Shown here piece after piece: positions 6,727-45,922 of a DNA stretch of 64,000 nucleotides. The translations under genes and the position numbers were made by a program. Source of the DNA: Antedon bifida (taxonomy: Eukaryota > Echinodermata > Crinoidea > Comatulida > Antedonidae); the NCBI GenBank assembly GCA_963402885.1, contig OY727100.1, forward strand, positions 4,216,001 through 4,280,000, in the 5' to 3' direction. The notes under the pieces were generated by a model. The model saw nothing but the letters and a program-made list of their open reading frames with translations. It was not told the DNA's origin and made no database searches. Position 1 is the first letter of the stretch; every line of letters begins with the position of its first letter.

Positions 6727-8820
6727 TGCACTTGAACACAGTGATAAGAAATAGGATTTAGTTCAGCACTGTGTGCTACTATACCCATTTTGGCTGCACT
6801 TGAGCACAGTGATAAGAAATAGGATCTAGTTCAGCACTGTGCACTACCAAACCCATTTTGGTTGCACTCGCGCACAGTGATAATAAATATGATCTAGTTT
6901 ATCACTGTGCGCTACCATACCCATTTTGGTTGCACTCGTGCACAGTGGTAAAAAATAGGATTTTAGTTTAGCACTGTGCGCTACCATACCCATTTTGGTT
7001 GCACTCGCGTACAGTGATAATAAATAGGATTTAGTTTAGCACTGTGCGCTACCATACCCATTTTAGTTGCACTCGCGCACAGTGATAATAGGATTTAGTT
7101 TATCACTGTGCGCTACCATACGCATTTTGGTTGCACTCGCGCACAGTGATACTAAATATGATCTAGTTTAGCACTGTGCGCTACCAAACCCATATTTTGG
7201 TTGCACTCGCGCACAGTGATAATAAATATGATCTAGTTTAGCACTGTGCGCTACCATACCCAATTTGGTTACACTCGCGCACAGTGATAATAAATAGGAT
7301 TTAGTTTAGTTCTGTGCGCTACCATATCTATTTTGATTGCCCTTGAGCACAGTGATAATAAATATGATCTAGTTTAGAACTGCGCGCTACCATACCCATT
7401 TTGGTTGCACTCGCGCACAGTGATAATAAATAAAATTTAGCTTAGCACTGTGCGCTACCATATTCATTTTGATTGCACTTGAGCACAGTAATAATAAATA
7501 GGATCTAGTCTAGCACTGTGCGCTATCATACTCATTTTGGTTGCACTCGCGCACAGTGATAAAAAATATGATCTAGTTTAACACTGTGCGCTACAATACC
7601 CATTTTGGTTGCACTCGCGCACAGTGATAATTAATAGGATTTAGTTTAGGACTGTGCGCTACCATACCCATTTTGGTTGCACTTGAGCACAGTAATAATA
7701 AATATGATCTAGTTTATCACTGTGCGCTACCATGCCCATTTTGGTTGCACTTGAGCACAGTGATAATAAATAGGATTTAGTTTAACAGTGTGCGCTACCA
7801 TACTTATTTTGGTTGCACTTGAGCACAGTGATAATAAATATGATCTAGTTTATCACTGTGCGCTATCATACCCATTGTGGTTGCACTCGCGCACAGTGAT
7901 AATAAATATGATCTAGTTTATCACAGTGTGCTACCATACCCATTTTGGTTGCACTTGAGCACAGTGATAATTAATAGGATTTAGTTTAGGACTGTGCGCT
8001 ACCATACCTATTTTGGTTGCACTTGAGCACAGTGATAATTAATAGGATTTAGTTTAGCACTGTGCGCAACCATACCCATTTTGGTTGCACTCGCGCACAG
8101 TGATAATTAATAGGATTTAGTTTAGCACTGTGCGCTACCATACCCATTTTGGTTGGATTGGCGCACAGTGATAATAAATAGGATTTAATTTAGTAAAGTG
8201 CGCTACCCTATCCATTTTGATTGCACTTGAGCACAGTGATAATAAATAAGAATTAGTTTAGCACTGTGCGCTACCAATCCTATTTTGGTTGCACTCGCGC
8301 ACAGTGATAATAAATAGGATTTAGTTTAGCACTGTGCGCTACCATATCCATTTTGGTTGCACTTGAGCACAGTGATAATTAATAGGATTTAGTTTAGCAC
8401 TGTGCGCTACCATTCCCATTTTGGTTGCACTTGAGCACAGTGAAAATGAATAGGATCTAGTTTAGCACTGTGCGCTACCATACCCATTTTGGTTGCACTC
8501 GCGCACAGTGATACTAAATATGATCTAGTTTAGCACTGTGCGCTACCAAACCCATATTTTGGTTGCACTCGCGCACAGTGATAATAAAGATGATCTAGTT
8601 CAGCACTGTGAGCTACCATACCCAATTTGGTTACACTCGCGCACAGTGATAATAAATAGGATTTAGTTTAGTTCTGTGCGCTACCATATCTATTTTGATT
8701 GCACTTGAGCACAGTGATAATAAATAGGATCTAGTTTATCACTGTGTGCTACCATACTCATTTTGGTGGCACTCGCGCAAAGTGGTAAAAAATAGGATTT
8801 GGTTTAGCACTGTGCGCTAC
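6727..8820. repeat. Higher-order satellite block, copy B
   Basis: This is the second copy of the block at 2400-4425, longer by one 68-bp unit inserted between the markers at 7863 and 8191. It diverges from copy A after the shared gcaaagtggtaaaaaatagg unit near 8820. Confidence 0.8.
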
Positions 8821-11214
8821 CATATCCATTTTGATTGCCCTTGAGCACAGTGATAATAATTATGATCTAGTTTAGCACTGTGCGCTACCATACCCATTTT
8901 GGTTGCACTCCCGCACAGTGATAATAAATAGAATTTAGTTTAGCACTGTGCGCTACCATATCCATTTTGATTGCACTTGAGCACAGTAATAATAAATAGG
9001 ATCTAGTTTAGCACTGTGCGCTATCATACTCATTTTGGTTGCACACGCGCACAGTGATAATAAAATGATCTGGTTTAGCACTCTACGCTATCATACTCAT
9101 TTTGGTTGCACTCGCGCACAGTGATAATAAATATGATCTAGTTTAGCACTATTCGCTAACATATCCATTTTGATTGCACTTGAGCAGTGATAATGAATAG
9201 GATCTAGTTTAGCACTGTGCGCTACCATAACCATTTTGGTTGCACTCGCGCCCAGTGATAATAAATATGATCTAGTTTAGCACTGTGCGCTACCAAACCC
9301 ATTTTGATTGCACTCGCGCACAGTGATAATAAATATGATTTAGTTTAGCACTGTGCGCTACCATACCCAATATGGTTGCACTCGCGCACAGTGATAATAA
9401 ATATGATATAGTTTAGCACTGTGCACTACCATACCCATTTTGGTTGCACTTGAGCACAGTGATAAGAAATAGGATTTAGTTCAGCACTGTGTGCTACTAT
9501 ACCCATTTTGGCTGCACTTGAGCACAGTGATAATAAATAGGATCTAGTTCAGCACTGTGCACTACCAAACCCATTTTGGTTGTACTAGCGCACAGTGATA
9601 GTAAATATGATCTAGTTTATCACTGTGCGCTACCATACCCATTTTGGTTGCACTCGTGCACAGTGGTAAAAAATAGGATTTTAGTTTAGCACTGTGCGCT
9701 ACCATACCCATTTTGGTTGCTCTCGCGTACAGTGATAATAGGATTTAGTTTATCACTGTGCGCTACCATACGCATTTTGGTTGCACTCGCGCACAGTGAT
9801 ACTAAATATTATCTAGTTTAGCACTGTGGGCTACCATACCCATTTTAGTTGCACTCGCGCACAGTGATAATAGGATTTAGTTTATCACTGTGCGCTACCA
9901 TACGCATTTTGGTTGCACTCGCGCACAGTGATACTAAATATGATCTAGTTTAGCACTATGCGCTACCAAACCCATATTTTGGTTGCACTCGCGCACAGTG
10001 ATAATAAATATGATCTAGTTTAGCACTGTGCGCTACCATACCAAATTTGGTTACACTCGCGCACAGTGATAATAAATAGGATTTAGTTTAGTTCTGTGCG
10101 CTACCATATCCATTTTGATTGCCCTTGAGCACAGTGATAATAAATATGATCTAGTTTAGAACTGCTCGCTACCATACCCATTTTGGTTGCACTCGCGCAC
10201 AGTGATAATAAATAAAATTTAGCTTAGCACTGTGCGCTACCATATCCATTTTGATTGCACTTGAGCACAGTAATAATAAATAGGATCTAGTCTAGCACTG
10301 TGCGCTATCATACTTATTTTGGTTGCACTCGCGCACAGTGATAATAAATATAATCTAGTTTAACACTGTGCGCTACAATACCCATTTTGGTTGCACTCGC
10401 GCACAGTGATAATTAATAGGATTTAGTTTAGGACTGTGCGCTACCATACCCATTTTGGTTGCACTTGAGCACAGTAATAATAAATATGATCTAGTTTATC
10501 ACTGTGCGCTACCATGCCCATTTTGGTTGCACTTGAGCACAGTGATAATAAATAGGATTTAGTTTAACAGTTTGCGCTACCATACTTATTTTGGTTGTAC
10601 TTGAGCACAGTGATAATAAATATGATCTAGTTTATCACTGTGCGCTATCATACCCATTGTGGTTGCACTCGCGCACAGTGATAATAAATATGATCTAGTT
10701 TATCACAGTGCGCTACCATACCCATTTTGGTTGCACTTGAGCACAGTGATAATAAATAGGATTTAGTTTAACACTGTGCGCTACAATACCCATTTTGGTT
10801 GCACTCGCGCACAGTGATAATTAATAGGATTTAGTTTAGGACTGTGCGCTACCATACCTCTTTTGGTTGCACTCGCGCACAGTGATAATTAATAGGATTT
10901 AGTTTAGCACTGTGCGCTACCATACCCATTTTGGTTGCACTCGCGCACAGTGATAATTAATAGGATTTAGTTTAGCACTGTGCGCTACCATACCCATTTT
11001 GGTTAGATTGGCGCACAGTGATAATAAATAGGATTTAATTTAGTAAAGTGCGCTACCATATCCATTTTGATTGCACTTGAGCACAGTGATAATAAATAAG
11101 AATTAGTTTAGCACTGTGCGCTACCAATCCTATTTTGGTTGCACTCACGCACAGTGATAATTAATAGGATTTAGTTTATCACTGTGCGCTACTAAACCTA
11201 TTTTGGTTGCACTA

Positions 11215-14416: not shown

Positions 14417-14608
14417 CCAATGAAGCATTAGCGTGGATACGGTACTGCATCTTGCCTCAGCTTCACTGGCATTCAATTTATCTGAATTTAAACCGGTCAG
14501 CCTTACAATTCGTTGGGTTTTTGGAATATAATCAAACAAACCTAATGGTTGATTATATCCTCTGTAAGTAATAGCCACTTTCATATGTCTTGTCTGGGAA
14601 CACATTAC

Positions 14609-14818
14609 TTCGTTGATCTGGTGAATTCAATGTGCATCCACCTCCGATTTCGGTGAAGGCAATCTCACCGCTTATCAGCCATCCTTTGATGCAGTTGTCC
14701 ATACGTGGTTGATACGCGTTGTAAAGTTGTTCATACGATGCAAGTGAACCTAAGTTAACGTTACAAGTGCTGGAGGCTACTTCGTAAGCAGCCTTAGATG
14801 AAATAGAATGTACACCAT
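14609..14818 (-). CDS. Link (hyaluronan-binding) module exon, partial gene
   Basis: An acceptor (tttcttttcag) ends at 14819 and a donor (gtaatg) begins at 14608. They bound a 210-nt exon that is phase 1 on both sides, as is usual for extracellular modules. It encodes the core of a Link/XLINK module: GSLASYEQLYNAY, then MDNCIKGWLISGEIAF and a GGGC motif. This gives three of the four module cysteines (SSTC, DNC, GGGC). The fourth, normally in a YDxYC motif, would be in the next exon, which I did not find. If the reading instead continues past the donor it stops after about 20 residues. Link modules bind hyaluronan or related polysaccharide in secreted or surface proteins. Since the region downstream is transposon-derived, this may be a relic rather than a working gene. 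Confidence 0.55.
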
Positions 14819-15225
14819 CTGAAAAGAAAAATTCTAGGATTGATAAATAAACTGCACTTAAAATTTGCATTCCGAAATCTTGAACAGAATGACAGATCAG
14901 TATAAGCAATATCTTTTGAAACAAATTACTACTTAATTCACAGTTTTTAGAAAAATAATATCAAATCTTAAACTAAATGTCGGAATACATGTGTATTGTC
15001 CAGTTTTGTCCATAGTAGTTAGTTCGTACGTACAAGGATGGGGGCTTAAATAGAGTGTATTTGTGTGTGATTCTCTTGAATAAATATTTGTTTTCGATCT
15101 CTTAGTCGAACCGTTAAGAAACTTGTATTGCAATTATATACGATATTTAACAAGGGCCAATGTTGTGGCGCAAACACCACTTTTATTCACATTCATATTA
15201 TCTCATTCCATACAAAGTTTCCTTA

Positions 15226-18289: not shown

Positions 18290-20410
18290 CTAGTGTATTC
18301 TCAAATAATGAATTTTCTTCATGACTTCTAATAAGCCTATTAAACTCTGTACAATTTGTATTAATAACACAGTAGTCGCTTTCACCTCATGCCTGAGAAT
18401 TGTATGCACGCATGTCGTCATTTCCTGTACCATCAAACGTGCGTTTGCTGTATTTCCTTCTACGAGTGAAAGCCTAGCATTTATGTACAAGGCAAGGGCT
18501 ATGGGATGAAGTAGAATTCTATGTTGCATTTTGGCAAAGTGGTGTAACAATTCATCAGCAACTTCCCAGGCATCCATCGCAAGAGGAAACGGAGTAGATA
18601 TCTCCACATTAATCTGCCGATTCATCATAACTTTATCTTTGTTAACAGTAAGAATTATGGGTAATAATACTGTGAGTTTCTCTTTCAGTTCGCTGTAGTT
18701 CGTCATTAGATAATGGTATATCACTATAACGGCTCGTCCACCAATTTGATTATCACTCCATTTGTCGGGGTATACCATGTCGATTCCCAATTCGTAATAC
18801 TGCAATGGCTTTTTGCAATAGAGTGATCTGTATGGTTCGCGTAGATTGATTCCAAATCTGCGGAAATATATCAGTAAGTATGTGTATACATCTCCTAAAA
18901 ATCTATACAAACGTTGTTTGAATAAGGGTTCGTAACCTTCCAATACTATGGTTTCAATATTGTCAACAATAGGCCTCATTATGTCTTCTGGGATCTTCAT
19001 AATCTCCGAACTAGTGTCTTGTGTGTTGGTAACAGCGTCGAAAACTCTTAACAAAGAAGGAAAATCTTTGGCCGCCCACATTGAATTCTCTAAATATCTG
19101 TATGTACTATGCGTAGAACCGCCCGGTTCCAATTGTTCAATGGCTAGTTTAAGTTTTTCTGTCGCTCTAGAATGCTCTAGGAGATTGGTTTCCAAAGCAG
19201 AAAAGTCATCTGGTGTGTTTACTCTGGGGATCCCTAATGCATCACTCATAGAATTGATGACATCAGTACGAACAAATGAAGCTATAGGAAGACTCGACAT
19301 CACCATTGTCCAGAGATCTTTCTTTACTGATTCCAGTTGGTCTATTACGCCGTCACAACGTTCTGTTGACAGATGTTCTATCAAATTTTGTTGGGGAATA
19401 AAATAGTGCTTTAAATGTCTTTGTTTGTAGGAATTGATTAACCAATCTATTACCTTTCTACCTACATCCATGACAGTCTGATGTTCATCTGGAGATCTTT
19501 CACATACCCACAAACAAGCAGTCTTTATAAAATAAGAACAGAAAGGTGTCGGTTTGTCAAGTTCACTATATACAATATACTTGGATTTTACTGCTTTCAG
19601 TGCATACATACATTCGGCGTACATTCTAGGAATTTTCTGGATGAGTTCTCTTTCAGCTAAAGAGAAAGATAATCTCCATTCAGTATCAATATGGCGACTG
19701 TTTTGATGTCCAACGGCGACTACAAGGCATTCCACTTGCCGTACCGTTTCTACCAGGTCTGGAGACGGCCAGTTTGGTCTTTTTCTAGTAAAGAAATTGT
19801 TTGCAAAAGACGGCCATGATTTACATTTCAAGCAAAATACATTATCAACCAAAATGATGTTTCCTTTTCCATTTGATGCTGTTGTAACTTTACTTGATAC
19901 TGAGGGACCATGTTTTTCAGATCCGTCTATAGAATATTCATTCACGGATGTACGATTATATTCTATGAAATCATCGGTCTTTAAATACCCATCGTTATTA
20001 ACCAGACGTTGAATATCTGTGTTTAGGCTGTCTTTGTCTTCAACTTTAAGCCGTAAAAATACCGGTTCAGTCTGCTCGGCAACAACATATCCCGCCGAAC
20101 TGGTTTGATCTTCTAGGCCTGGTGTTTGCGATTCCCATAAGACGATTGGAAATATTCGCTTTCTCATCATCATATCGTGGTCACTACAGACGTTTACATG
20201 CATTCCTTCAAACATGCTTCCAGTTTGATAGTTGTGTTGTGGCCACCATAACAGTTGTTTGTCTACATTATTTTGTATCTCCTGTTCTATCCTAAAATAT
20301 GATATTTTAGTTTGTCTACTAACTGTGCATAAGCCGATAACTGAATTTGCAAGATCTTCCATCAGCCGACGCTTACTCGTTAATTCGTCGTTATCTGCCA
20401 TTCTCTCCAA
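18290..20410 (-). CDS. Mab-21/cGAS-like nucleotidyltransferase-fold protein
   Basis: This is a single uninterrupted 706-residue frame. The N-terminal part carries nucleotidyltransferase-fold signatures: GS at 64-65 in GSMFEG, the acidic pair D77/D79 in SDHDMMM, and a third acidic candidate D189 in LVDNV. The Mab-21 helical part follows: CKSWPSFANNF, RKRPNWPSPDLV (about 209-220), VVAVGHQNS, EWRLSFSLAERELI (about 244-257) and SYFIKTACLWVCE (about 292-304). In this family cGAS and cGAS-like receptors make cyclic dinucleotides, while several Mab-21 members have no shown catalysis. All three metal-binding acidic positions appear present, so activity is possible; this is inference. The C-terminal 300 residues are alpha-rich with no family I recognise. 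No zinc-ribbon of vertebrate cGAS type was evident. Met1 is used; Met4 is an alternative start. No introns or operon-like neighbours are seen. Confidence 0.85.
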   Translation of the reverse strand: MERMADNDELTSKRRLMEDLANSVIGLCTVSRQTKISYFRIEQEIQNNVDKQLLWWPQHNYQTGSMFEGMHVNVCSDHDMMMRKRIFPIVLWESQTPGLEDQTSSAGYVVAEQTEPVFLRLKVEDKDSLNTDIQRLVNNDGYLKTDDFIEYNRTSVNEYSIDGSEKHGPSVSSKVTTASNGKGNIILVDNVFCLKCKSWPSFANNFFTRKRPNWPSPDLVETVRQVECLVVAVGHQNSRHIDTEWRLSFSLAERELIQKIPRMYAECMYALKAVKSKYIVYSELDKPTPFCSYFIKTACLWVCERSPDEHQTVMDVGRKVIDWLINSYKQRHLKHYFIPQQNLIEHLSTERCDGVIDQLESVKKDLWTMVMSSLPIASFVRTDVINSMSDALGIPRVNTPDDFSALETNLLEHSRATEKLKLAIEQLEPGGSTHSTYRYLENSMWAAKDFPSLLRVFDAVTNTQDTSSEIMKIPEDIMRPIVDNIETIVLEGYEPLFKQRLYRFLGDVYTYLLIYFRRFGINLREPYRSLYCKKPLQYYELGIDMVYPDKWSDNQIGGRAVIVIYHYLMTNYSELKEKLTVLLPIILTVNKDKVMMNRQINVEISTPFPLAMDAWEVADELLHHFAKMQHRILLHPIALALYINARLSLVEGNTANARLMVQEMTTCVHTILRHEVKATTVLLIQIVQSLIGLLEVMKKIHYLRIH

Positions 20411-21329
20411 AAGAAGAAGCCTTACAAACTATATAGGCCTACCAGAAATATTGAGACAAAATGTCGTACGAGCACGAACATAACAATAGCAATGGTTAGG
20501 CCTATAACAATAGCTTCAATTTATGACGTGAGGAGTACAGCTAAATTTAGATCATCTATAGTCCAGGGGAATTCCAGAATACAGAAATATGTCATTTTTT
20601 AACGAGGGCATGCAGATATGACTAGCAGAATAATACTCCGTTCAAACGAGCATAATGTACTTTAATAAATGAAACTGATACACTTTAGTAAGCTGCTGTT
20701 TTACTGTATATTATATAAAAGAAAGTGTAGAGAAAGATTTTTAGAACGAAGGATAAATGCAACCGAAGGTAACATCATTTTTTAAGAATGTTTTCAAGAA
20801 TTAAAAATTATAAATGAGAAAATTTAAGTGGATGATAATATAAGCTATAACAAGAATATTAGTTAGACACTGGTAGTGTATCATATATAATGTATCAAGA
20901 GTAATGTGGGACACCTCCACCAAAGAGAAAGAAAAAAAGCAGCTGATTTACTATTTTAATGTATTAGTTTGAACGGAACATCCTATTGTCTTTCTTCCTT
21001 TGTAGAATTGTTCTACACGCCTTCAACATTGTGTATGGTTTTGTTGAACAGAATATGTAGAAATAGTTGTTCAAAATAGCATTTAACAATAATAAAATAT
21101 TATATAATTTGCAACTTCTTTCTGGATTCTACCAAAATGTTAAAACAATATGAAACATTAGCATGATATAGAATAATACACAATCACACGTATATCTAAA
21201 GTAAAATGAGTTAAATTTATTAAAATAATTATGCAATCAATTTCGGGAAGACAACATAAAAGAAATGTGTGTTTCTTATAAAATGTGAACAGCACTAGGC
21301 CTTACAATTCCACAGTTCAAAGGAACACA
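20411..21329. other. Non-coding, upstream of the Mab-21-like gene
   Basis: AT-rich sequence containing the 5' flank of the Mab-21-like gene. I see no clear TATA box or conserved promoter element, and no further gene. Confidence 0.5.
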
Positions 21330-23740: not shown

Positions 23741-24149
23741 TTTCTATTTTTTCTTTACTTCTTTACTATGTATGTTTGTTGTCCTCTATACAGATATATG
23801 ATTGCCATAGCCAGAGTGTGTCATTAATTTGAAATATTTGAAAATCTGAGGAAAGAAGTTTATGTTGATTAAAAATGTTGAATGAAGATAACTAGATTAT
23901 GTTTCAAAAGGGAAATGATTTATAAAGGTTATGCTACATGCAAATCGCAAACTAAAAAATAAAAAACTGAAAACAGTTTGGCCAAACCGAGACCCAAAAA
24001 CAAATCTGTAAGAGAGTATGCATTACCATACAGTAGCATTATACGTTTTTCATATATATTTCTTAGTTTTTGGTTAAAATTAAACATTTATTTTCTCTTT
24101 TTATAACTGAAATAAATTTTTTTGTTTTTTTTTTACAGAAGTGAATAAA

Positions 24150-24888: not shown

Positions 24889-25008
24889 CTTAATTTCTTT
24901 GTCATCTGACCCAGTGAATAATAAACCATTCTTCAATGCTAGCGCATTAACGCCACCTTCATGCCGACTTAGTGTTTGCAGTGGCAGAAAGTTTTCAAGA
25001 TTCCAAAT
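24889..25008 (-). CDS. TRAF7-like exon 13: WD40 blade 7
   Basis: This 40-codon, phase-0 exon encodes IWNLENFLPLQTLSRHEGG and FTGSDDKEIK, then donor gtaggc. TRAF7 normally ends a few residues later (VW plus a short tail), so the remaining exon should be tiny; it was not located. Reading through the donor would add only eight residues before a stop. Confidence 0.87.
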
Positions 25009-28000
25009 CTGTAAAAAAAAATATTTTAAAAAGTTTTCAAAAATGTTACATTTTTGACGAATAATCACAATCAAAATGTTTTATACAAGTTTAGAAAGTT
25101 TATAATGATAAACCTTTACAGAATATTAAATATTAAAAAACGCTGCAAGATACATAAAGTAGGGTAAAGTAACATGCAATACCAAAACATCATAGGAAGC
25201 CCAGCTGCATAAATGTGACCAACCCATGTGCAACTATACTGAAATGGTTCTGCACAGTATATGAAGATGATGATCAATAATATTCAGGGGTATACTTTCT
25301 TATGCATAAAGCAGTGTACACATTTTTTAGAGATTTTGTGGAATATTTTAACAATATGTCTATGTACATTTAGCTTGCTTTTTGTTGATAATAGTGAGTT
25401 TTCGCATCGGGTAGGGTAATTACAGTCCCCTTCGCTTACCATCCCAATGCAAAAGCTCCCTCATCTTCCCACAGATCACCTTATCTTAAAAACATAATCA
25501 ATTTGTTCTACAATTTTTTAACCTAATATACGCCCTGATATTAAAATGAAAACAAACACACAATAATGAAACAAAAATTAGTATTGGTTTATTTTTTGAT
25601 AAGTTGGCATCGATTGAAATATAAATAGCTTCCAATTGATACTTATGGCATCTTGTTAGCAGCACAAACATGTCAAGATTTTTCATTCATTAGCAGTGTT
25701 TATGAATTAGTAATATTCTTTGTTTGTTTGTTTCTGTATATAAATTATTTAAAATGTATTTTACTATCTTCAAAGAAAGGAAGACTTGCAAGTTAGCTTT
25801 TATTTCCATATATTTTAAAACGGCCCAACCCAATCAGTTTAGTCTTTCCTGTGTTTAGTTGTAGTTGCTTAATACTACATGATTGCAGAAGTAGTTGTGG
25901 CACCCCACATGTATATACATAATGCATGTGACTGTAGCAACAATAACAATATAACTGGTTTCAGCTACAGTACTGGTCAGAGGACTTTAGACATTCCTCG
26001 CGTTGTTCGAGTATTGCTACCGATATTCTCATCCTCGAGTAATACATTAAGGTCAAAATCCATGCATGAACAGTTTTATTGAGCAGGGATTTCCGGCTAG
26101 CAGTTTATCCTCATTTCATTGTCTTTCGTTGTTCCACGTTATTAGCGTAAAAAACTAGGCCGTTGTCGGCGATAATAATTTATTTTAGAAATAGCAAATG
26201 TCAATCAACAATTAAGCAATGGGTGTCAATTTAAAGCATGAGGAGCAGGAATTAGTTGCTACAACGCAATTATTAACTTAGCAGTAGCATAGAAAGTAGG
26301 ACTATGCATTAGTTGCGAAAATGACAGCAATAATACAGTAAAAGTTGCAGTAGCAGTAGCATTATTTGCAGAATTATCATTGACATTACAGTATTATTGT
26401 ATGTGACAGTAGCAGTGTCTAAAGTGCAGTACAGTAATAGTAGCAGTGAATAGTTTTTTTGGTAGTTGAAGTAGTATTGTAATACTACTCCGCAGAAGCA
26501 TTATGAAAACAGTATTAGTAGATGTGTTAGTAGCAGTTGCAATACAAGGTTGCAGTAGTATTTGTAGCATTAATAATAAGTTCTGGGCATACTGTATCCA
26601 TGAATAGGCAGAGATAGAGTATGACCTGGATTTAGGATGTTTGCAGCACCATCGCAATGAATTGGTCTGCTGCTAATCCATTCAACTTGCTGAATTAAAT
26701 TGTATTGTTATGCCCTACTTGGTTCCCACTAGGATGCAACACAAGGATGTAACTTGTAAGCGCAACACGAGTAATTCGACGAATCACAAGCGAAGTTTTT
26801 TCACATTTATAATTTTATTCTTTTTTCTACAACTAGTTCCACACCCACCTACACCAATATATTTACATTCACATTGTCTATTAAATCCTTCAAACGTCAG
26901 TCAACAGAAAAGACAACTTGTAAATGACATGGGATGGGTCACATAAGGCTTTTCAACGCACCAACATCACAAGCAAGTAATCTGATCTGTAAATAGTGAT
27001 TGGTCAACTTGCTTGTGTTGCGTTTACAGTCTTGCATTGCATCTTAGTGGGAATCATTGTCAAGCCACCGTATTATTAGTAGTGCAGTAGTAGTGCATAT
27101 TAAGGTGTTGTTTTCATATACTGTACCTGAATTGTACAGTCATATGACCCAGAAAGTAGAAATTGTTTGGCTGGGGACAAGCCTAAATCAGTGACAATGC
27201 CAACATGACCCCGAAGTGACTTCACATGCTGGTGAGACACCAGATCAAAAATTTGCAAATTTCGATTATAAGTACCTACAAAATAAAACCGACATATAGA
27301 GTCATACAAATGGTGTGGGAGGTGAAAGAAGGGCATGCAACGTGGAAGCAATGATGAAAAGTGAGACTCCGTGTTATCATTGTTTGTTGTTACCTTGACA
27401 ACGGAATCAAATGATGTTGACACTAGAAACATATTGCAAGGAGAGAGATGAAGGTCTGTAATTGTACCAATATGTGCTGTCAAGTCACTAAGATGTTTGT
27501 GAGTAATAACGTCATATAATTGTATATTCTGATTGTATGTTCCTAAGAAAAAGAGAGCATTTTATATTCAGGTGAACATTAAAGATGTATTATCCCCCAA
27601 AAACTTTGAATTATGTTATTTTGTAGTTTTAATTTAGTAAATCACTTCCGTAGAAAAGAAAATGGAAAAAAGAATTATTTTTTCAGGAGGACATCTACAT
27701 TAAAAGTTGTAAGTCAAATTGTTTTGTCAAACAAGATAATGAACATTTATTAGTGGAGTATATATAGTATATATCAAGAGGTGGACTGGTCTACTAATAA
27801 AAAACCCTATCCATTCTAAAAATACAAAATTGTTTGCTTTATACCACACATATGTTAATAACCAAGGCTAGGCCCTAGCCCCCTTAAAAAAAGATCTACA
27901 GTGCTCAGAATTCGGCCGAGTAAAGCTAGCTAGTGCACATTTCAGAATAGTTTTCAAATGTGCAACCTCGAAATTCTAACAAAAACATCCTAATTGCAGG

Positions 28001-31000
28001 TTTTTTTTTTTTTGGAATTCAATTTCTAACAATAGTTAAACAAGGGAAGCGTGACATTAAATCTTATTCTTTCGGTTTAAACATAGAGCAAAGATAGAAT
28101 ATTATTTAAATAACTAGCATAAAACAATTTTTATTTACTGGCCGAAATGATGATCAAATATAAATCGAAATATTAAATCTTTATTTCCTTCACATTAGTT
28201 ATCAGCGTTCTATCATTGCTGAAATAACACATTATAATATATGTTTTATTTAGTTAATTTAGTTTTTATGACATCATGAAGTACATATTGCTTACCAATA
28301 ATTAAGTAAAGATCAGTTATTGCCATGGAATAGACGGAACCATAAGTATGCTCCAATTTTCTCTTCAGGTTAAAATCGCCATCAGAACTCCAGACATGTA
28401 TAGCATTGTGAGACCCACTGTACAGCATTTCCTATAATAGCAAGAAACATTTCTTACAAAAAACGCTGCTCGACTTTTTGAAGTAACAGTTGTAATTATT
28501 GTTCTTTCTTCATTAAATGATGCTCTTTTTGAAATTGATATTCTATTTCATAATTAAGAAATAATGATTTATTATCAATTATTTTTGTTTAACGTAAATA
28601 TAGTCTGAACGGAACAAATTCCGAAACTAAACTAACAATTTGAATAATGGTGGTGGTCAAACTATATTCCAGGGTAGAGGCGTCACTCCCTAAGGTCGTA
28701 GTGACTCACATACCCTAACATTCCAGAAACAAAAAATTTTTCCTTATCCTGATAATTTAACACATTTTACAATACAAACCTTACTATCATCCAAAGTTAA
28801 TGCTCTAACCCAATGATGAAGACCAGATAGTGTTTTAATGGCTTCTAATTTCTCATGACTCCAAATCTTTCAAAATAAATAGAGATTTTTAGTTACAAAT
28901 TATGTTAGGGAACATTTGCTTTCCTCATGCAGTGGCATAACGCAAAAGACATTGGCGAGGCCCCTGGGTATAGCCAGTGAGCGCTCATTGGCGACGTCCC
29001 TGGGTTTAGCCAATGAGCGCTCATTGGCGAGGCCGCTGGGTTTAGCCAGTAAGCGCTCATTTGTGAGGCCCCTGGGTTTCAGTGAGCGCTCATTGGCGAG
29101 GCCCCAGGGTTTAGCCAGTGAGCGCTCTTTGGCGAGGCCCCTGGGTTTAGCCAGTGATCGCTCATTGGGGAGGCCCCTGGGTTTAGCCAGTGAGCGCTCA
29201 TTGGGGAGGCCCCTGGGTTTAGCCAGTGAGCGCTCATTGCCGAGGCCCCTGGGTTTAGCCAGTGAGCGCTCATTGGCGTTAATTAACTTTTCTGATGCAA
29301 CATTCAATCAGTAAGGAAGTTTATCGTGTTATTTCTCATGCTTACATTTCTTGTCATTGCATAAGGTTGTACAATTACAATGTATTAAATAGAAATAAAA
29401 TGTTATTTTACCTTAATTTCTGCATAGGAAGATGAAAAAACATACTTTGCTGTTATGGCTAATGCTGTAATTTCTTCTGAGTGGGCGTCCTAAAAAATGT
29501 ATTTATAAAATCAACCAACCAAATGGATACACTAGGTAAAATAAAATCAATATACTGTATCATATTACTATACATACAATAAAAAACACACAAATAATAT
29601 ATATATATATATTTCTATAGGGAATATACTGACAAATATTCTGAACAGATTTAATAAAATATAAGTAAATGATTATGGTTTCTGGAAATTGAGAGGCATT
29701 CAGAGTTGGGAACCCCACAAACTATCGACCATAAGCATGATACCACATTCACAAGAATTGCCTTTTGAAAATTGAAACAAACTCCTTAACACATTCAGGT
29801 GTGCTGTTTGTATCTTGGTGTGTAGACGTTTACCAAATTTAAGTGTGCTGTGAATGGCACACCTTGATGGAATTTAGGATTGTTCCTCAAAGGACCATGC
29901 ATGTGTACAAAATAATGACCAATATTGATGAGCAAGTTTTATCTACCTTTCTTGCTAATGTTTCTACCATAGCCTGTTCATCATAAGACCATTTTCTAAT
30001 GCTTTTATCTATGCTCGCACTGAAAAGAAAATCCCCTCCATCTATCAATACTGTCACCTAAAAAGAGAAAATAAATAATATAATATTAATAATAATAACA
30101 AACAAACATTCAATCAAGACTTTAATCTAAATTTTGGAGAATTTTTCTAGAAGTGAGAAACACTTTTAGCTTTTATTAAAGTAAAAACCATACGACAACT
30201 TATTGCCTGTAAAAGCTTACAATTTTCATTGGACACTTTTAGCCTTTTCAAAATAAAAAATCGGTCCTGTAAAGTGGAGTGGTTCTTCTTAATTTTAAAC
30301 AGGATATTTATTGGAACAAGGTAGTATGGGAAAAGAGTATTTACTGAAATTTATTCAAATGGGCTCAGGTTATTTACAATACATTTACATATAGCCAAAT
30401 ATGGTATTATAACCTACATCAATCTTATCTGATGTTTGCGGTCTGCAAATTGATTCTTTACGTGTTTTACAAGTCTGTATTTTACCAGACAAAAATTGAA
30501 ACATCTGCAAAATGTAACAACATGTTTGCATAGTGTGAATACAATTTTGTGTGAAAAACACAATGATGAGAGGCCTGTTTTTGTTCCAAGATGTTCAGAG
30601 TTGATACTGTGCACGCGCATGTATTGCCCTGGTATTAAACTTACCAATCGTAGTAAGCAAATAGCACGCAACTATGCTTTTCCTTCGAGATTTATCAGGG
30701 TTCGCATACGCGTGTATGAAAATGTGTTACAAATCGGGAGATCAAACCTGGTTACAAGTTGTTACAAGATGTAAAAATTTATGCAAATGTGAAAAGGGTA
30801 TAACATGACAAAGACAAATGAAATACAGACTTGGGGCAAGTGTAGGTAATCAGTTACAAGTTTAGTTACCTTTCCCTTGTGTCCTTTAAGCGTTTTTGCA
30901 CAGCCTTTACTTAACTGATCTATGTTCCATACTTTAATGACGTTGTCATCACCACTACTGTACAGATTTCTACTCTTAACTGCTAGACAATGAACGCTAC

Positions 31001-34000
31001 CAGCATGCCCTCTATAACAAAAAAACGTCTTACAGTTAAAAGTTAAAGTGTCCATTCATAGGGCCAAGGGGATTGCAAAAGTAGTGGAGCTGTAGCTTTG
31101 TGGTTAACAAGTTTGCCTTTCAATCCCAGGGTCCAAGGTTCAATCCTGACCTAGTGCCAGGGTTGTAACTCCACTCCCTAAGCCTCAAATGAGACTTACA
31201 TTAAAAGCATAATGAATTATAAAATAGTTTATCCATACTGTAATTGGCTAGTTGCCCGCTTTTGGATGCGTATGAAAAAAAAAACTTTTAAAATACAGAA
31301 TATGAATTTATTATTATTGCATAATAATTTAATTTTGAAACGTCTAGAATTTATTTTTATTAATTGAATTTTGAAAAGTTTATATTTTGCCATTTTTTCC
31401 TGTGTACAGGGATTTAAAAACAGTAAAATTGTAAATAAATTGTAAAATTGCTGCAATATTACCATCTGTGAAAATGGGTCTAGATCGGCAATAACACTGA
31501 CTTGTTTACAGCGATATTGCTGCAACTCTTTGTGAAAAGACCTTATAAAATGATAGTAACACAATGATTCTGAAAATGATTTTCATTGTAAAGGTAATGC
31601 ATTCTGGTCCTCAAGTTTAACTGGAAACTGAGGAAATTTGGATTAGGCCCTCCACGGACCCACGGCAGCCAGCAGTGCAGCGCCTACCAGATCATCACAC
31701 CGGGAGACTCTTTTCGAATAGTGTACCAAGTTCTTTAACGTGCACTGTTAAGTACACGGGACCAACGGCTTTACATCCCATCCGAAGGACGAGGCAATGA
31801 GAGTAAAGCATCTTGCCTAAGGATGCAATTAGTATGGTACAGAAAACCTCGAACCCATGCCTATCACATGCTAGTCCGATATTACTATTACACCATCACT
31901 CTCTGGTGTATATACAGCACCCGCCGCTATTTCTAGACGGTCTCCCATCCAGAAAGCAACCGGGTCCAACGTTGCTTAACTTCGGTGATCTGACGAGAAC
32001 CGGTGTTCAACGCAGTATGGCTGTATATAAACATATACATAAAGTATGGAATATCGTATGACAATATTACCTCAATGTACCTATACACTTGAATTCAAAT
32101 GGAAGAAACCACTTCTCTCTGGAAATTGATGATAGATGGTCTGGACTACTAGAAGAGTTCCTTTTACGTGAGCCAATACCTAAATTAAACAAGAAATATT
32201 TCTTACAAAAACGCCGCTCATCTCACGATAACTACCATCTACAAGCATCTCAATATTTATCAGCAAATGTTTTCATAGACAATTTTTTCCCAGATGTGCT
32301 TTGGGGTGTGCGCATGCCCAGTCAAAGTCCTAATTTTTTCAGCCGTAGTAAAGTATAAGCTACCACATGGTAACTGTTTCCTAATGTTATCATTCTGCCT
32401 AAAGGAGCTGCGCAAATTATTAGCTATACTATATAAAAATCATGTAAGACTATTATTTTATCTTTTAATTTTCATTACTTGATAGGGAGTTGGTAGAACT
32501 GTTTCTAGCTCTGCGTACAAGCTCAACTTTCTGCAATTTTAGCTGTTGTTCTTCTAAATTCTCAATCGATCTGAAATGAATTTGTAATAATATCAACTAC
32601 TAATAAAAAAATAAATACAAATAATTAAAAGCAATAAAAAATTGGAAAATTGACCCTATCTTTCTAGTGATCAAGAATTAAACAATATTTTAAAGAGGTA
32701 AAGTGAGGGCCACACACCCTGTTGTACGTTCTTCTGCTGAGTTCAAATCCAACGCTAGTTGCATTGCTTGCAACCTAATAGGCAAGACACTTTATTTACA
32801 GTACGTTTGCCTCTCCACCCAGGTATACAAATACCTGTCAAAACACAACTGTGCTGATTTTATGCACCACTAACGAAACTTTGGGCCACAGATAAAAAAA
32901 AAGTTATGACCATTAAATAAATAAACTCCAGTATCATCCAGTAAAACCGCAAGGTACTGTAGGTAGATAATTTATTTTTCTATTTTGTTGATGATTTGAC
33001 TTTTTAACTTGACTTTAGCATAGAATTGTTTTATCTTTGTATGAGACAAGCACCTTTATTTCCACTTGTTTTGTGGATGAAATAAAGTTATCTTATCTTT
33101 AAGCAGTTGACTTTCAGAAGATAGTAACATACAGGGTCATGACAATTGTATTTAACTACTGTGGAGTAGCTTTGCATCTGGGAGTTGCGTAATTGATCAG
33201 ATGTTTGCCCTACTCTGATGTAATTTTGTACTTTATACTAAATAAGTACATTGAGAAAAAACAAAACAAACAAAAAAACAGTGTCACTTACTGTGAACAC
33301 TTCTGCAACAAAGCAGCCATTGTTCTTCTTTCCTCTTCTAAACTTGATACTCGGTCACTTAATTCAGATACCATCTTCTTTAAGCTTGTATTCTCATCAC
33401 TTAACTTTTCCATCTGAAAATTATTTCAAATTAAAAGAAAACCATATAAAGATTAAGAATTCTCTTTTAGTGTCAGTTTTTTTTTTACAGTTTTTGAGTC
33501 TTAAAAGGCACTGTTTACAATGATACTAAGACTTTTACTAGGGTACAAGGCGCCCGACACAACTGGTGCTGACCAGGGTTCAATTTTTGACAGAACCCTG
33601 GTTAGCGACGAGGGTGTAACCCCATAATTTGGTTTGGGTTTTGCTATTTGTTTTTTTCTATTTATCTCCGAATTTAGTTCAGCGCTTAGAGGTTTCACAA
33701 CATTAGGCTCTTTATAAATCCATGATATTATAATTACTAATAGAAGAAATTAGATTAAAATATCAAAATATTCCCTCAGTACCTAGTGGGCATTCCTATA
33801 CAGAGATAACATAATAACAAAGGGTAACATAATAGACAGTGCAGTGAGAAGATTGGAAGATGAAATCTATAATGCCATTTGATTCTGTTAAAAACCATTA
33901 GCACTGTATATAAAAAAAAAATTATACTAATTATTTTATGAACATGACAAATGTTTGTTCCAATCTATTTTTAGCATGATGGCAATGAAATAAGTTACAT

Positions 34001-36787
34001 GTTTACATGATTGCCATACAATAATATTATAATATAATTTTATTTTCGTAGTTTTTAAAATTTACTTTTGTCATCTACTTCCGTACTAAAGCTCAGTCTA
34101 CACTATCAAACTAGTTTGACAAAAGAAGTGTGATGTACCCACATATGGTAATGATATGACATCATCATGTCCATATATGGGCACATCACATTTTTTTGTC
34201 ACATAAAGTTTGATAGTGTATACTGAGCTTAACAGTATGAAAATTAGTTGATGATGAAATACATTTATTATTTGTTTATTTTATGTCTTCAGACACATGT
34301 GGCCAATGATTACCATAGTAAATTAATCACTGTCCTATCAGATAGGTGGTAATCCCTCTGATTAAGGGGATATTTCTTAAACCAGTTCACCAGGGTAACC
34401 ATCTACTTGTTTCAAATGATGATGATAACTGTTGATCTTTAGGTACGCTAAATGGCGCCACTGTCTTAACTGCTCGGCCATTTGACTCGCATTATAAAAA
34501 TGAAAGAATTGGAATGTCACAGTTAGTTAGATGGACAGCGAAAACAAATCTAGGAGTTTATTTGGAGTTATTTAGAGCAGATTGTATAATTTCATAGATA
34601 GACCTACACTTACATTTTCTTTAAAATGTCCATATGCCGGCTCTTTAGCAAAATTACACTCAGATTGGTGTTTTTGTATTTGGTCATTGACTCCTATAAA
34701 TGTACAACCTAATGTAAAGAAAATAACAAATGTTAGAATAATAAGAATTATCTGACCTTTAAGGGAATTGTGGTATTTATTCATAAAGCTCTGTCTACAC
34801 TATCAAACTTTATGTGACAAAAAACGTGATGTGCCCATATTTGGACACGATGATGTCATATTACTACCATATTTGGGCACATCGCACTTTTTTTGATAGT
34901 GTGGACAGAGCTTTAGAACAGTTTCACATCCATCATCAACAGATGCAAAACAGGATGGAAATGAGTCATAAAATGATTGTTAAGGTTAAATATAGTCTGT
35001 GTGAAAAATATATATATATAATTATACATACAATATATTTGATATAACTGATGTTGAACTAAGCCTATGAAGTTCTGAAATCAAGTAATAATAATGTTTT
35101 AAGTATTTAAACACTGTCATCATAGTAGGTGACACTTGCACACGCATTCCACAAAGGCTAACAAATTTGTAATTTACTAAATTTCGTTGTGATTTTTTTA
35201 TTGAGAGTGACATATAGTTGTTAAAAGATGTTGCTTAAGATTGAAAGCAATAGTATAACTTCTACTAAAAGGATTTTGTTGGCTTTTGTGTTGGACAGAC
35301 AATGTTTTTAGTATACATACTAATAATCGGGATTTGTGTTTGGGAAGTTTAATATAAATTAACAGGCACGGAATAAATTCTAAACCGCCCGGTGATATTC
35401 TAAAAACAAAGTATAAATAAATGCTTTATAATGATTTAAACAGCACTTGTGTGGAGGATTTCATTGTTATATAAATTACCACTAATAGTAATTTTATCCC
35501 CTCTATACTAGTGGATAGGACTCTTACCACTTAGATAGAATGCACCTCTTTAAAAATCCAGCGTACATGATGCAAATTATAAATTATTGAGATGCAAAAT
35601 GTTGTACGTTTACCATTTTCTGCATATTTACATGCCATATAAGGGCACACTTTAACATGGTCATCTAATTCTTTTTTTCTAAATGTTCCACACACAGTTT
35701 CGTTGTTCGGGCAGCCTAGCTTAACATACTCGCACGTCTGCTCATGGTCTTCTATGTCGGCTATTGTTAGTTGTACCGGGCAACCTCCTTCTTCCGGAAC
35801 ATAGTCACGAGATGTAAGACGTGTGATGCCATGGGGGCAGTATACTACTAGATCGTCAATCTGAGAAGCAATGGCTCTGTAAGTTTGAACAAAAAAATTG
35901 GCATAAATATACTAGTCTGTACATATTCAAATACACGTCTGTTCAACTCCATTTAATCCTCAACTTCCTCTACATTTCTTTGACTTGGAAGAGCACCACA
36001 GGAGCTATGAGGATATGGTGTGGTATTATAAAAATCTACATTATTATTAATGACATATTCAAATAAAAACAATGGTTAAACTGCAATAGCTCAGCCAATT
36101 ATTACTAAAGCTAAACATGAGATGAAAGACCATTTTATTTTTTATATATTATTAATCTTTCCAATGTTACTTTACTAAATATGTTTCAATTAATCAATCA
36201 AAATAACATTTATTTCCAAATAATGCTGGCGTCACCAAGAAAGCAATATGCTTGTGTCAGAGATGCATGTAAATCTAAAAGTCATCGACAAGCCTGTAAA
36301 GGTTTAACAGTATAAAGCTAGTAGTAGTATATTACAATATTATAGGCTAGGTCTATCTATAAGTCTACAGTAATCTTCTAATAATAATGTGCTTTTAAAA
36401 GTAAAATGTTTCTGACATTGGCCTAGTACTGCAAAATGTAAACAACCTTCCTGTAAATATCAAAGAACAGGGTGTGGAGAAACCCTCTTCTCCGCCTATT
36501 ATACTAAATCTGTCTGCTACCTACTCCCTATAAAAGCTAGGCCTAACAATGTCTTACCGGTTAACAACAAGGTTATCGGGATTTATCGGCTTTCCGTCCA
36601 CCGGACACACAACCGGGCTCGCTTCATCACCGGTATCAAGTGGCCTACAAGTGCAAGCTTGGCAAAAGGTGTGGCCACATTCTGTACTGATTACGGGATT
36701 TAAAAGAAGTTTTTTGCAAAATGGACAATTTAACTGTGTTGATGGTTGTTTGACCAGAGGCCTAGTTTTACTGTTAATTGAAGTCAT
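24889..36787 (-). CDS. TRAF7-like RING/TRAF-zinc-finger/WD40 E3 ubiquitin ligase (14 exons)
   Basis: Phase-consistent splicing joins exons on the minus strand into about 578 codons plus an unfound short terminus. Residues 21-64 form a C3HC3D RING (C21, C24, C37, H39, C42, C45, C61, D64; last ligand in CPVD). Residues about 109-184 form a TRAF-type zinc finger, including GCTFIG as in TRAF7. About 197-262 are coiled coil, then FKCIGTLRGH opens seven WD40 repeats. This order is specific to TRAF7, which ubiquitinates substrates and acts with MEKK3 in MAPK/NF-kB signalling (known for the vertebrate protein). The start Met at 36785-36787 has an in-frame TGA 18 nt upstream. Human TRAF7 is longer at the N-terminus (about 670 residues). 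Sequence is divergent, so this may be a paralogue. Two exons are alternative to each other. Confidence 0.9.
26270..26580. repeat. Degenerate agtagc low-complexity tract in TRAF7-like intron
   Basis: The tract is rich in gtagcagtagca-type trinucleotides with many interruptions, an old decayed microsatellite. Open frames through it on the minus strand are compositional. Confidence 0.6.
26722..27054. mobile_element. TIR element, about 333 bp, in TRAF7-like intron
   Basis: The left end gttcccactaggatgcaaca and the right end (reverse complement) attcccactaagatgcaatg form imperfect inverted repeats that continue for about 65 bp, down to cgacgaatcac and gaccaatcac. The interior is non-coding. It ends 72 bp from exon 12b. 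The target duplication is unclear. Confidence 0.7.
27127..27275 (-). CDS. TRAF7-like exon 12b (alternative copy): WD40 blades 5-6
   Basis: It is also 149 nt, phase 1 to phase 0, acceptor ttttgtag, donor gtacag. It encodes GTYNRNLQIFDL, LRGHVGIVTDLGLSP and GSYDCTIQ, closer to the canonical WD40 pattern than copy 12a. It is only 118 bp downstream of copy 12a in transcript sense. Confidence 0.88.
27394..27542 (-). CDS. TRAF7-like exon 12a (alternative copy): WD40 blades 5-6
   Basis: This 149-nt exon runs from phase 1 to phase 0, acceptor tttcttag, donor gtaaca. It encodes GTYNQNIQLYDV, AHIGTITDLHLSP and SFDSVVK. It is homologous to the next exon (27127-27275), with about 23 of 50 residues identical. 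Joining both would break the frame. Confidence 0.88.
27583..27699. mobile_element. Internally deleted TTAA MITE in TRAF7-like intron
   Basis: It opens with TTAA|agatgtattatccccca and closes with aggaggacatctaca|TTAA, with only about 117 bp between. The inner sequence (gtagttttaatttagtaaat, cacttccgtagaaaag) matches larger family members. It sits 40 bp upstream, in transcript sense, of the exon 12a acceptor. Confidence 0.65.
28296..28431 (-). CDS. TRAF7-like exon 11: WD40 blades 4-5
   Basis: It encodes EMLYSGSHNAIHVWS and YGSVYSMAITDLYLIIG, ending at phase 1 with donor gtaagc. The following exon must begin with two bases completing glycine; both exon 12a and exon 12b do so. Confidence 0.9.
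28780..28866 (-). CDS. TRAF7-like exon 10: WD40 blade 3 end and blade 4
   Basis: This 29-codon, phase-0 exon encodes IWSHEKLEAIKTLSG and HHWVRALTL, matching the WVRAL motif of TRAF7. The donor is gtttgt. Confidence 0.87.
28950..29278. repeat. 36-bp intronic minisatellite, about 9 copies
   Basis: The unit is gagcgctcattggcgaggcc then cctgggtttagccagt, GC-rich against an AT-rich background. Because 36 is a multiple of 3 and the unit lacks stops in several frames, open frames of over 130 codons exist on both strands (ERSLAKPRGLAN on minus, LASERSLARPLG on plus). It lies in the intron between exons 9 and 10 and is not bounded by usable splice sites. A coding role is unlikely. Confidence 0.9.
29412..29489 (-). 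CDS. TRAF7-like exon 9: WD40 blade 3
   Basis: This 26-codon, phase-0 exon encodes DAHSEEITALAI and SSSYAEIK. It is followed in the mRNA by IWSHEK of exon 10. Confidence 0.86.
29947..30057 (-). CDS. TRAF7-like exon 8: WD40 blade 2
   Basis: This 37-codon, phase-0 exon encodes GGDFLFSASIDKSIRKWSYD. The acceptor is tttttag and the donor gtagat. Confidence 0.88.
30870..31011 (-). CDS. TRAF7-like exon 7: WD40 blade 1
   Basis: It encodes RGHAGSVHCLAVKS and NVIKVWN, then KTLKGHKGK of blade 2. It runs from phase 2 to phase 0 with donor gtaact. Confidence 0.9.
31083..31200 (+). mobile_element. tRNA-derived SINE fragment
   Basis: An A-box-like tagctttgtggttaac is followed 35-40 bp later by a B box ggttcaatcct, then a non-tRNA tail. 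The tRNA stems are not preserved, so this is a SINE head rather than a tRNA gene. It is in a TRAF7-like intron. Confidence 0.55.
31625..32031 (-). mobile_element. 5S rRNA-derived SINE
   Basis: Read on the minus strand the first 110 bases resemble 5S rRNA: gatctgacgagaaccgg (as seen on plus) is the reverse complement of the 5S ctcgtcagatc segment, followed by the internal promoter boxes aagttaagcaacg and ggatgggagacc. The body continues to about 31625 with ccttcggatgggatgtaaag and a gtgcacgttaaagaacttgg string. 5S-headed SINEs (SINE3 type) are known in animals. It lies in the intron just below exon 6 without overlapping it. Confidence 0.75.
32071..32179 (-). CDS. TRAF7-like exon 6: linker into WD40
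   Basis: The acceptor taatttag and the phase-2 donor gtaat bound 109 nt encoding a Ser-rich linker and FEFKCIGTLR, the counterpart of the segment just before the first WD40 blade in TRAF7. Only with this exon is the frame into RGHAGS kept. Confidence 0.82.
32479..32570 (-). CDS. TRAF7-like exon 5: coiled-coil end
   Basis: It encodes SIENLEEQQLKLQKVELV then a basic, serine-rich linker. The acceptor is atttcag and the donor gtaatg, leaving phase 1. Confidence 0.82.
32697..32870 (+). mobile_element. tRNA-type SINE, probable
   Basis: A B-box-like gagttcaaatcc is followed by a body with gcttgcaacctaataggcaa, gacactttatttacagt and gcctctccacccaggtatac, a conserved-looking SINE core. It lies between exons 4 and 5 of the TRAF7-like gene. 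Confidence 0.5.
33292..33413 (-). CDS. TRAF7-like exon 4: coiled coil
   Basis: It encodes MEKLSDENTSLKKM and SELSDRVSSLEEE, a heptad pattern of leucine, valine and methionine. The acceptor is ttttcag and the donor gtaagt, leaving phase 2. Confidence 0.85.
33537..33660 (+). mobile_element. tRNA-type SINE fragment, probable
   Basis: tactagggtacaaggcgccc and cagggttcaatttttgac are spaced like pol III A and B boxes. The tail contains cagaaccctggttagcgacg. It is in a TRAF7-like intron. Confidence 0.4.
34090..34229. mobile_element. Harbinger-like MITE, 140 bp
   Basis: The TIRs agctcagtctacactatcaa and ttgatagtgtatactgagct (the second with one extra change) are flanked by TAA on both sides (34087-34089 and 34230-34232). 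The interior carries catatggtaatgatatgaca and tgtccatatatgggcacatc, shared by the family at 34787, 48206, 48546 and 63005. Confidence 0.8.
34264..34420 (+). repeat. Dispersed repeat, copy 1 (shared with 50095-50345)
   Basis: Shares gattaccatagtaaattaat, cactgtcctatcagatagg and accagttcaccagggtaac with the copy near 50.2 kb. No TIRs or coding capacity; perhaps a SINE or a LINE tail. Confidence 0.65.
34614..34708 (-). CDS. TRAF7-like exon 3: TRAF zinc finger, last part
   Basis: The acceptor tttacattag completes the split glycine of GCTFIG. It ends in KEN|gtaagt at phase 0. H178 and C182 close the final finger. Confidence 0.88.
34787..34912. mobile_element. Harbinger-like MITE, 126 bp
   Basis: TIRs agctctgtctacactatcaa and ttgatagtgtggacagagct. 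The flanks are TAA on the left and TTA on the right, one mismatch from a TWA target duplication. It lies between exons 2 and 3 of the TRAF7-like gene. Confidence 0.78.
35614..35876 (-). CDS. TRAF7-like exon 2: TRAF zinc finger, first part
   Basis: The acceptor cttacag is followed by AGCCATTG; the donor is aatg|gtaaac. It encodes GCPVQL, HEQTCEY, GCPNNETVCG and HVKVCPYMAC, the paired Cys/His ligands of the TRAF-type zinc finger. Confidence 0.88.
36558..36787 (-). CDS. TRAF7-like exon 1: RING finger
   Basis: It encodes residues 1-76 plus two bases of R77, including the whole RING from CPFC to CPVD. The donor is ccg|gtaag. An in-frame stop at 36803-36805 supports the start. Confidence 0.9.
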
Positions 36788-43252: not shown

Positions 43253-44320
43253 CTAATCATGTTTGTAATATTGCGTCAAAGGTCCAAACATCATTGATTG
43301 TCGTGCATGAAGAATAAATCTCTGCATAGCTTGAATATCGACCAAACTTGTAGGGTTTTGAATAAACGGAGGAACGCAGTAGCTTGGCAGAACAGGCCCA
43401 CTTGGTCGACATGCTTGTAATACGTTGTGCATCTGGGACTCTTGGTTCAGATGGTTAGGATACCTCATTATTGTGCTGAAGTGTGGATTAAAAGCTGGTA
43501 ATACGTTGCCTGGCGATTGGAAAGGTGACCATTGTAAACACATCGGTTCTTCTTTATCTGGTTGTTTAACTGCGTATATCGGGACGGGTCTGACAGACCG
43601 AGGACACAACACGGGACTAGTCGTTTGTGTTAACATTGTGAAATTACTCGAACTGCTTTGAACAGATTTGATACTTTCTGGTCGGTAACTTTCCGATAGT
43701 TCTGTACCAAGAATCTGATCAATACTGAACGTACTTGAAAACTTTTTTCGACGTGAAATTTTTGCCAATTGTTGATTACTGCTACTTAATGAAGAGTTGT
43801 GCTTAGACCTACTTTTTATCTTCTTTCGTCGCCGCCGAAAGACACCGTCAGCGAAGGTATACTCACTCTTTTCGTTAATTGTCCAATAGTTGTCCTTACC
43901 CCAAGGTCTAGTAGGATCACGAAGAATCTTGACAAAACATTCGTTCAATGACAAATTATGCCGAACAGAGTTCCTCCAACCCGTATAAGAACCTCTGAAG
44001 AATGGAAATCGATTCATAAGGTATTCGTTGATCTCGGCTAAAGTTAATTTTCCACTTCTTGAGTCCTTGATGGCCATTGCTATCAATGCAATGTACGAAT
44101 ATGGAGGTTTAGGATGACGATGGTATGCCGTCTTTGAAGATAACTTCATCATTTGCTCATTGTTTCCTTCTGATGTTACTAACTCATTTAGAAGTGAAAT
44201 ATTAGTTTTATCTTTTTTAATGTTTTTTACAGAGTATTTTTCCAAACAATCTTTCTCTGCTAGTTTCTGTAACGACGATTTCGAGAGGTCAATAGGCTCA
44301 ATGCTAATTAAGCTCTCCAT
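43253..44320 (-). CDS. Forkhead transcription factor FoxQ1
   Basis: This is an intronless 355-residue frame. The forkhead domain spans about 70-166: [14 protein letters not shown] at 71-84, recognition helix [16 protein letters not shown] at 114-129, and the FoxQ1-type stretch [13 protein letters not shown] and [14 protein letters not shown]. The choice of [19 protein letters not shown] and SYTGW separates it from FoxQ2 and FoxL families. FSIDQIL at 199-205 fits the EH1 motif (FxIxxIL) that recruits Groucho/TLE co-repressors. The protein should be a nuclear DNA-binding regulator; in other animals FoxQ1 is used in epithelial, endodermal and pharyngeal tissues (family knowledge). FoxQ1 genes are commonly single-exon and linked to FoxF/FoxC, which are not in this window. 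A TATA box lies 181 bp upstream of the start. Confidence 0.93.
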
Positions 44321-44500
44321 AGTTTCAGCAACTTTTATTCCAAAACTTCAATTTTCTTTAAATAAAGAATAAGGATGATGCAGTTTTTTAAAAACTTCTT
44401 GTATCCTTTCTTTTCGTTAATAATTAAAGAAGTTTATTATGCAACATTCTAATAAACAGTTAGTGTTCCTGAATCTATTGTGAGGTAAACGCTATGCATC

Positions 44501-45577: not shown

Positions 45578-45678
45578 TTATTATTCATAAATATGCCACT
45601 CTATTGTGCTAATTGTTCTTTTATATTCCATGTAGCCTAATAAAGTTATTAAGAACCTGTTATATTTTACATAAACAA

Positions 45679-45908: not shown

Positions 45909-45922
45909 CCTGTTATATTTTA

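Follow-up and report, generated by a model that had tools for sequence, protein, structure and literature searches.

In OGDH, exons 4a and 4b are a mutually exclusive pair separated by a restricted intron with a long pyrimidine tract and an AG-free zone (PMC7969005). The OGDH branch points, which were mapped by experiment, lie 25-41 nt from the donor of the first exon in human (PMC7969005), and a steric limit of ~50 nt was applied both for OGDH (PMC7969005) and in a human survey (PMC5740500). That survey describes 629 human clusters of mutually exclusive exons; 377 (60%) include exons whose length is not a multiple of three, and in 57 (9%) the distance between donor and branch point is under 50. 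Elsewhere, 236 human events of tandem duplicated exon substitution are reported (PMC9741552). Among WD40-repeat proteins, coronin-1D has exclusive duplicated exons, 5a and 5b, which were identified in tetrapods and encode part of the coronin domain (PMC3203266). Human TRAF7 consists of a RING, a zinc finger, a coiled coil and seven WD40 repeats (PMC12801879). Two TRAF7 genes are reported in lamprey and zebrafish (PMC7179693), so paralogues do occur, and a splicing event described for mouse Traf7 is exon skipping (PMC10334696).

The minus strand of the window, i.e., the whole 64,000-nt stretch of DNA that was analyzed, contains a gene whose architecture is TRAF7-like and whose WD40 region includes two 149-nt exons, here called A and B. 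With a probability of roughly 0.85, the two are products of an old tandem exon duplication, are spliced mutually exclusively and provide an alternative part of blades 5 and 6. Judged from its sequence, the exon pair is real and probably functional.

In order, the gene has exons for a RING, for zinc fingers, for putative coiled coils and for a WD40 propeller. Its model comprises 11 shared exons ahead of the pair (36787 to 28296), A and B themselves and one further shared exon (24889-25008). Every intron is GT-AG, and with either A or B the exons can be read through in phase for 578 codons without meeting a stop. The RING exon (36558-36787) is the first coding exon of the model and was matched by Pfam zf-C3HC4_2 at 31.3 bits (cut-off 27). 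It is followed by a zinc-finger exon (35614-35876), and both were assigned from Pfam and a structure match, the TRAF6 chain 3hcs_A matching residues 17-192 (E 1.8e-07), a match that takes in the zinc-finger region. For the zinc fingers, Pfam gave Sina_ZnF alone, at 26.6 and below its cut-off of 32, among the 25 of 35 families listed. A second zinc-finger exon (34614-34708) was recognized by eye, as were two coiled-coil-like exons (33292-33413 and 32479-32570) with heptad-like sequence between the zinc fingers and the WD40 domain. A linker exon (32071-32179; KWFLPFEFKCIGTL) leads into the WD40 domain, which begins with exons for blade 1 (30870-31011, by Pfam), blade 2 (29947-30057), blade 3 (29412-29489) and blade 3/4 (28780-28866). 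The shared upstream exon (28296-28431) holds the end of blade 4 and strands A to C of blade 5 and ends in phase 1, and the shared downstream exon starts in phase 0 and supplies strand D of blade 6 and blade 7. The best candidate for the last exon (23786-23845; IFKYFKLMTHSGYGNHISV followed by a stop) is uncertain.

Pfam scored the WD40 domain at 101 bits, with three stretches passing 0.001. Seven blades were counted by eye and by alignment to a C-terminal sequence that we take to be that of human TRAF7, the exon of the last strand being uncertain. Outside the pair, 92 of 224 aligned residues of the WD40 domain are identical to this sequence, which has the right letter at 16 of the 16 published variant residues falling in it (15 positions from PMC12801879, plus R641). 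Searches of solved structures gave no chain named TRAF7 among the 60 matches listed of 531 or among the 60 listed of 97. The gene is diverged and TRAF7-like in its apparent domain order, and it points to an animal source.

The window contains several other features. Full-length 5S rRNA-like elements lie on the minus strand at 31909-32028 (71 bits) and 58594-58711 (69 bits); the former is within an intron of the TRAF7-like gene and so may be a 5S-derived SINE. Nine copies of a 36-bp minisatellite (28950-29278), open on both strands, lie in the intron that separates the exons for blade 3 and blade 3/4. A 21-bp repeat of the CCCAAATATGG type occurs at 48246-48295, 48592-48671 and 63009-63088, and letters resembling it were seen by eye near 34100-34240 and 34780-34930; it is perhaps a mobile element. 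Downstream of the TRAF7-like gene and on the same strand is a Mab-21-type ORF of 712 codons (18290-20428; PF03281 and PF20266). Also on the minus strand is an ORF (14553-14960) that encodes an extracellular link (Xlink) domain, and a 68-bp satellite, repeated in tandem over 11 kb, occupies the left end of the window (1-11213). A single-exon forkhead ORF (PF00250) is located at 43253-44347 on the minus strand, 1.2 kb from another minus-strand ORF (45581-45919) that has no Pfam match at 0.001 and whose middle, by eye, repeats part of the forkhead ORF almost letter for letter.

Exon A (27394-27542, minus strand; GTYNQNIQLYDVITHKHLSDLTAHIGTITDLHLSPCNMFLVSTSFDSVVK) covers the last strand (D) of blade 5 and the first three (A to C) of blade 6, with the blades assigned by eye, and exon B (27127-27275, minus strand; GTYNRNLQIFDLVSHQHVKSLRGHVGIVTDLGLSPAKQFLLSGSYDCTIQ) is an alternative copy of the same segment. 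The initial annotation had placed two exons of equal length at these coordinates, with phases of 1 in and 0 out, a spacing of 118 bp and about 23 of 50 residues identical. All of this was reproduced, with GT-AG borders at both exons and an identity of exactly 23/50 without a gap. The acceptors are ctctttttcttag/GAA for exon A and ttttattttgtag/GTA for exon B, and the donors are AAG/GTAACA and CAG/GTACAG, respectively. Both donors match the donor consensus at 6 of 9 positions, as do 10 of the 14 donors of the gene, these two included.

The likeness of A and B exceeds that of WD40 blades in general: their ungapped BLOSUM62 score is 151, whereas B reaches at most 31 against any 50-residue window elsewhere in the modelled WD40 domain; with gaps it scores at most 49 against the upstream blades, and 5000 shuffles of B peak at 46. 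Segments of 136 residues scored 56.2 bits with A and 64.0 bits with B against Pfam WD40 (cut-off 27), and another propeller model gave 68.0 and 66.2, respectively. Of the tetrad usual in WD40 repeats, both exons encode the His, Ser and Asp, and exon A has AH where GH is usual. The exons also differ in charge, with 2 K+R and 4 D+E in A and 4 K+R and 3 D+E in B. In tblastn searches of the window with pieces of the gene, the A and B queries found each other (E 1.3e-15 and 6.1e-16), and no third copy was found, all other matches to these queries having an E of at least 0.19. An assembly duplicate was ruled out by the A/B DNA identity of just 79/150.

The phases of the exons restrict how they can be combined. 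The downstream exon is read in frame 0 after A alone or B alone, in frame 2 when A is spliced to B and in frame 1 when neither is used; translation stops 17 residues past the A/B joint in the joined form and 4 residues past the joint in the form with neither. The earlier claim that inclusion of both exons or of neither breaks the frame therefore stands. To treat A alone and B alone as the only readings that keep the frame would be too narrow, as the A frame runs through the 118-nt intron without a stop and A plus intron plus B (416 nt) is also frame keeping.

The open intron bears on a rival reading, in which the 118-nt stretch (27276-27393, minus strand) is not, or not always, removed and gives a single 416-nt exon or a retained-intron isoform with 89 extra residues. 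Frame 0 would be preserved downstream, and of 8494 118-nt windows from the other 12 introns of the gene just 897 lack a stop in a given frame, but the open frame is explainable by composition, with 1501 of 5000 dinucleotide shuffles also open. The stretch is moreover bounded by GT-AG, with a usable donor and acceptor, and its codon score of -0.15 is near the intron mean (-0.16) and not the coding mean (0.19), 2.7% of coding windows being as low. Its translation, 39 residues long, drew no Pfam hit at E 1 or better, and by eye the strands A and B that an extra blade would need are not there. Retention is very unlikely to be the explanation.

With mutually exclusive splicing, exactly one of A and B would enter each transcript, giving two versions of the WD40 propeller. 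The sequence supports the two TRAF7-like isoforms differing in blades 5-6 that had been proposed, the difference spanning blade 5's outer strand and the greater part of blade 6. Such alternative isoforms may differ in tissue use and in substrates. Wrongly joined or skipped transcripts would presumably be removed by nonsense-mediated decay; the stop of the joined form falls inside exon B, ahead of another junction, while the presence of a later junction in the skipped form hangs on the uncertain last exon. These early stops, and the position of the one in exon B, would also suit a frame switch, in which joint inclusion or skipping lowers expression through decay (unproductive splicing) and two propellers are not made. 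Two protein-coding exons under residue-level constraint are not needed for such a switch, which we consider barely credible. Mutually exclusive use does not require the complete absence of joined transcripts: reads across an A-B junction, which the initial annotation regarded as a refutation, are too strict a test, because the human survey accepts joined-exon reads where joining causes a frame shift (PMC5740500).

Constraint on both copies is indicated by the pattern of divergence. A and B share 28, 36 and 15 of 50 nucleotides at codon positions 1, 2 and 3, respectively; the 23 shared residues use identical codons in 9 cases, against 9.4 expected under randomized synonymous sites, and of the 9 fourfold sites that can be compared, 7 differ. 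By these counts, synonymous sites look saturated with the residues retained, and NG86 estimates gave a dN of 0.46 and a saturated dS. In a neutral simulation in which one copy drifted freely, started from B and without indels, 23 identical residues were kept in 99% of runs at a distance of 0.25, 24% at 0.5 and 0.25% at 0.75, and in 0/2000 at both 1.0 and 1.5; an open frame plus AG/GT survived in 0.5% of runs at 1.0. The simulation is not decisive at the short distances (0.25 and 0.5), but given synonymous saturation the longer ones are relevant, and constraint has probably acted on both copies ever since an old duplication. Codon randomization and simulated neutral decay thus support the long-term selection suggested previously. 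The 40-nt flanks of A and B are unlike (12/40 and 13/40 identical), and blastn of the surrounding introns gave a best E of 0.61, leaving aside the A-to-B intron present in both inputs, as expected from an old duplication.

The same data address the possibility that one exon alone is in normal use, the other being a copy that is seldom used or dying. Codon scores are low for the gene in both exons (-0.06 for A and -0.04 for B, in bits per codon over 117 nt): 5% of the gene's coding windows are as low, and 24% (A) and 18% (B) of intronic windows are as high, under a coding model trained on the gene's other exons and two neighboring ORFs, which flatters those coding windows. Exon A in particular has AH for GH, a lower Pfam WD40 score (the other propeller model slightly favors A) and a little less likeness to the presumed human segment (15/50 identical residues, compared with 18/50 for B). 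A dying copy is nevertheless difficult to reconcile with open frames, intact splice sites and 36/50 conserved second positions in the face of saturated synonymous sites, or with the rarity in neutral runs at distance 1.0 of a surviving frame with AG/GT and the lack there of any run keeping 23 residues. Single use is accordingly a highly improbable alternative to exclusive use of two maintained exons.

The intron between A and B has properties that could enforce this choice. It is the shortest in the model; of the 12 others with fixed ends, 11 are 299 to 1200 nt long and that following B measures 2118 nt. A pyrimidine-rich stretch (27308-27367, minus strand; intron positions 27-86) is 77% pyrimidine over 60 nt, a content that none of 9190 overlapping windows of this size from the other 12 introns matches, and it overlaps an 89-nt AG-free zone. 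This zone is the second longest among the 13 introns, after one of 103 nt in the intron between B and the blade 7 exon, and AG gaps reach 88 nt in 9 of 458 cases across the 13 introns, this one included. Two motifs at 27355-27362, CTCAC and TTCAT, provide candidate distant branch-point adenines at intron positions 32 and 39, respectively, both closer to the donor of A than the steric limit of ~50 nt. If the acceptor of B uses these motifs, A could hardly be joined to B, while the upstream exon could still be joined to it. A competing and good motif, TTCAC, has its A at position 71 (27323), and TGAC is present at 92 nt; a branch point at 71 nt lies beyond the limit and would not block splicing of A to B. 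That a branch point at 32 or 39 nt helps to block this splicing, as in OGDH, is therefore a tentative proposal and less likely than not.

Docking of intron RNAs, as in a Dscam-like selector, was not supported in this single genome, a weak test, since no intron pair outperformed its 60 shuffles (z of 0.44 for I1 with I2, -1.34 for I2 with I3 and 2.21 for I1 with I3, the last weaker than shuffled). Local folding gave z values of 0.27 for the intron and -0.85 for A plus intron plus B.

The swapped segment aligns with residues 575-626 of the presumed human sequence. A and B are closer to each other than either is to the human segment, which suggests that the duplication took place after the lineage separated from that of human or that it is confined to a diverged paralogue, a dating based on three sequences only. 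To our knowledge, human TRAF7 has no duplicated exon. The human variants L595V, T601A, K615E and F617L fall within the aligned segment (PMC12801879), and, if both exons are used, the partners of the two isoforms could show what the face at these positions binds. The most extensive scenario, in which a TRAF7-type ubiquitin ligase swaps this disease-variant region of its propeller by means of two ancient exons, kept exclusive by a branch point too near the donor of the first, and so becomes two ligases with different partners, is unlikely as a whole.

Exon pairs of this class are well known, and a TRAF7-like gene appears to be a new host. TRAF7 does not occur in the main texts of the two human surveys (PMC9741552 and PMC5740500), and no exclusive exon pair in TRAF7 was found in the open-access literature searched, which consisted mostly of titles and the starts of abstracts. 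This agrees, within a search that was not exhaustive, with the view of the initial annotation that no such pair had been described for TRAF7. When viral contigs were scanned for the B-form segment, 29 pattern matches arose, of which none was confirmed as a relative.

A and B resemble the human sets in being probably exclusive exons that are homologous (as in PMC9741552), in often shifting the frame if combined and in age, the human tandem duplicates being mostly old. They resemble OGDH exons 4a and 4b in probable exclusivity, the restricted intron, the long pyrimidine tract and the AG-free zone (PMC7969005). The branch points of the A-to-B intron, however, are motifs read from sequence, and its AG-free zone of 89 nt, with the 71-nt motif usable too, contrasts with the canonical size of ~280 nt given for a fish OGDH minigene (PMC7969005). 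Coronin-1D exons 5a and 5b are exclusive duplicates within a WD40-repeat protein, but they belong to a different gene from TRAF7 and have a separate origin (PMC3203266). If both A and B are used, the locus would be a natural experiment on a TRAF7-like WD40 domain, with two versions of its surface that are 46% identical and apparently long kept. Another WD40 gene would then join the cases of exon swapping beside coronin-1D, possibly with an OGDH-like steric lock in a different gene.
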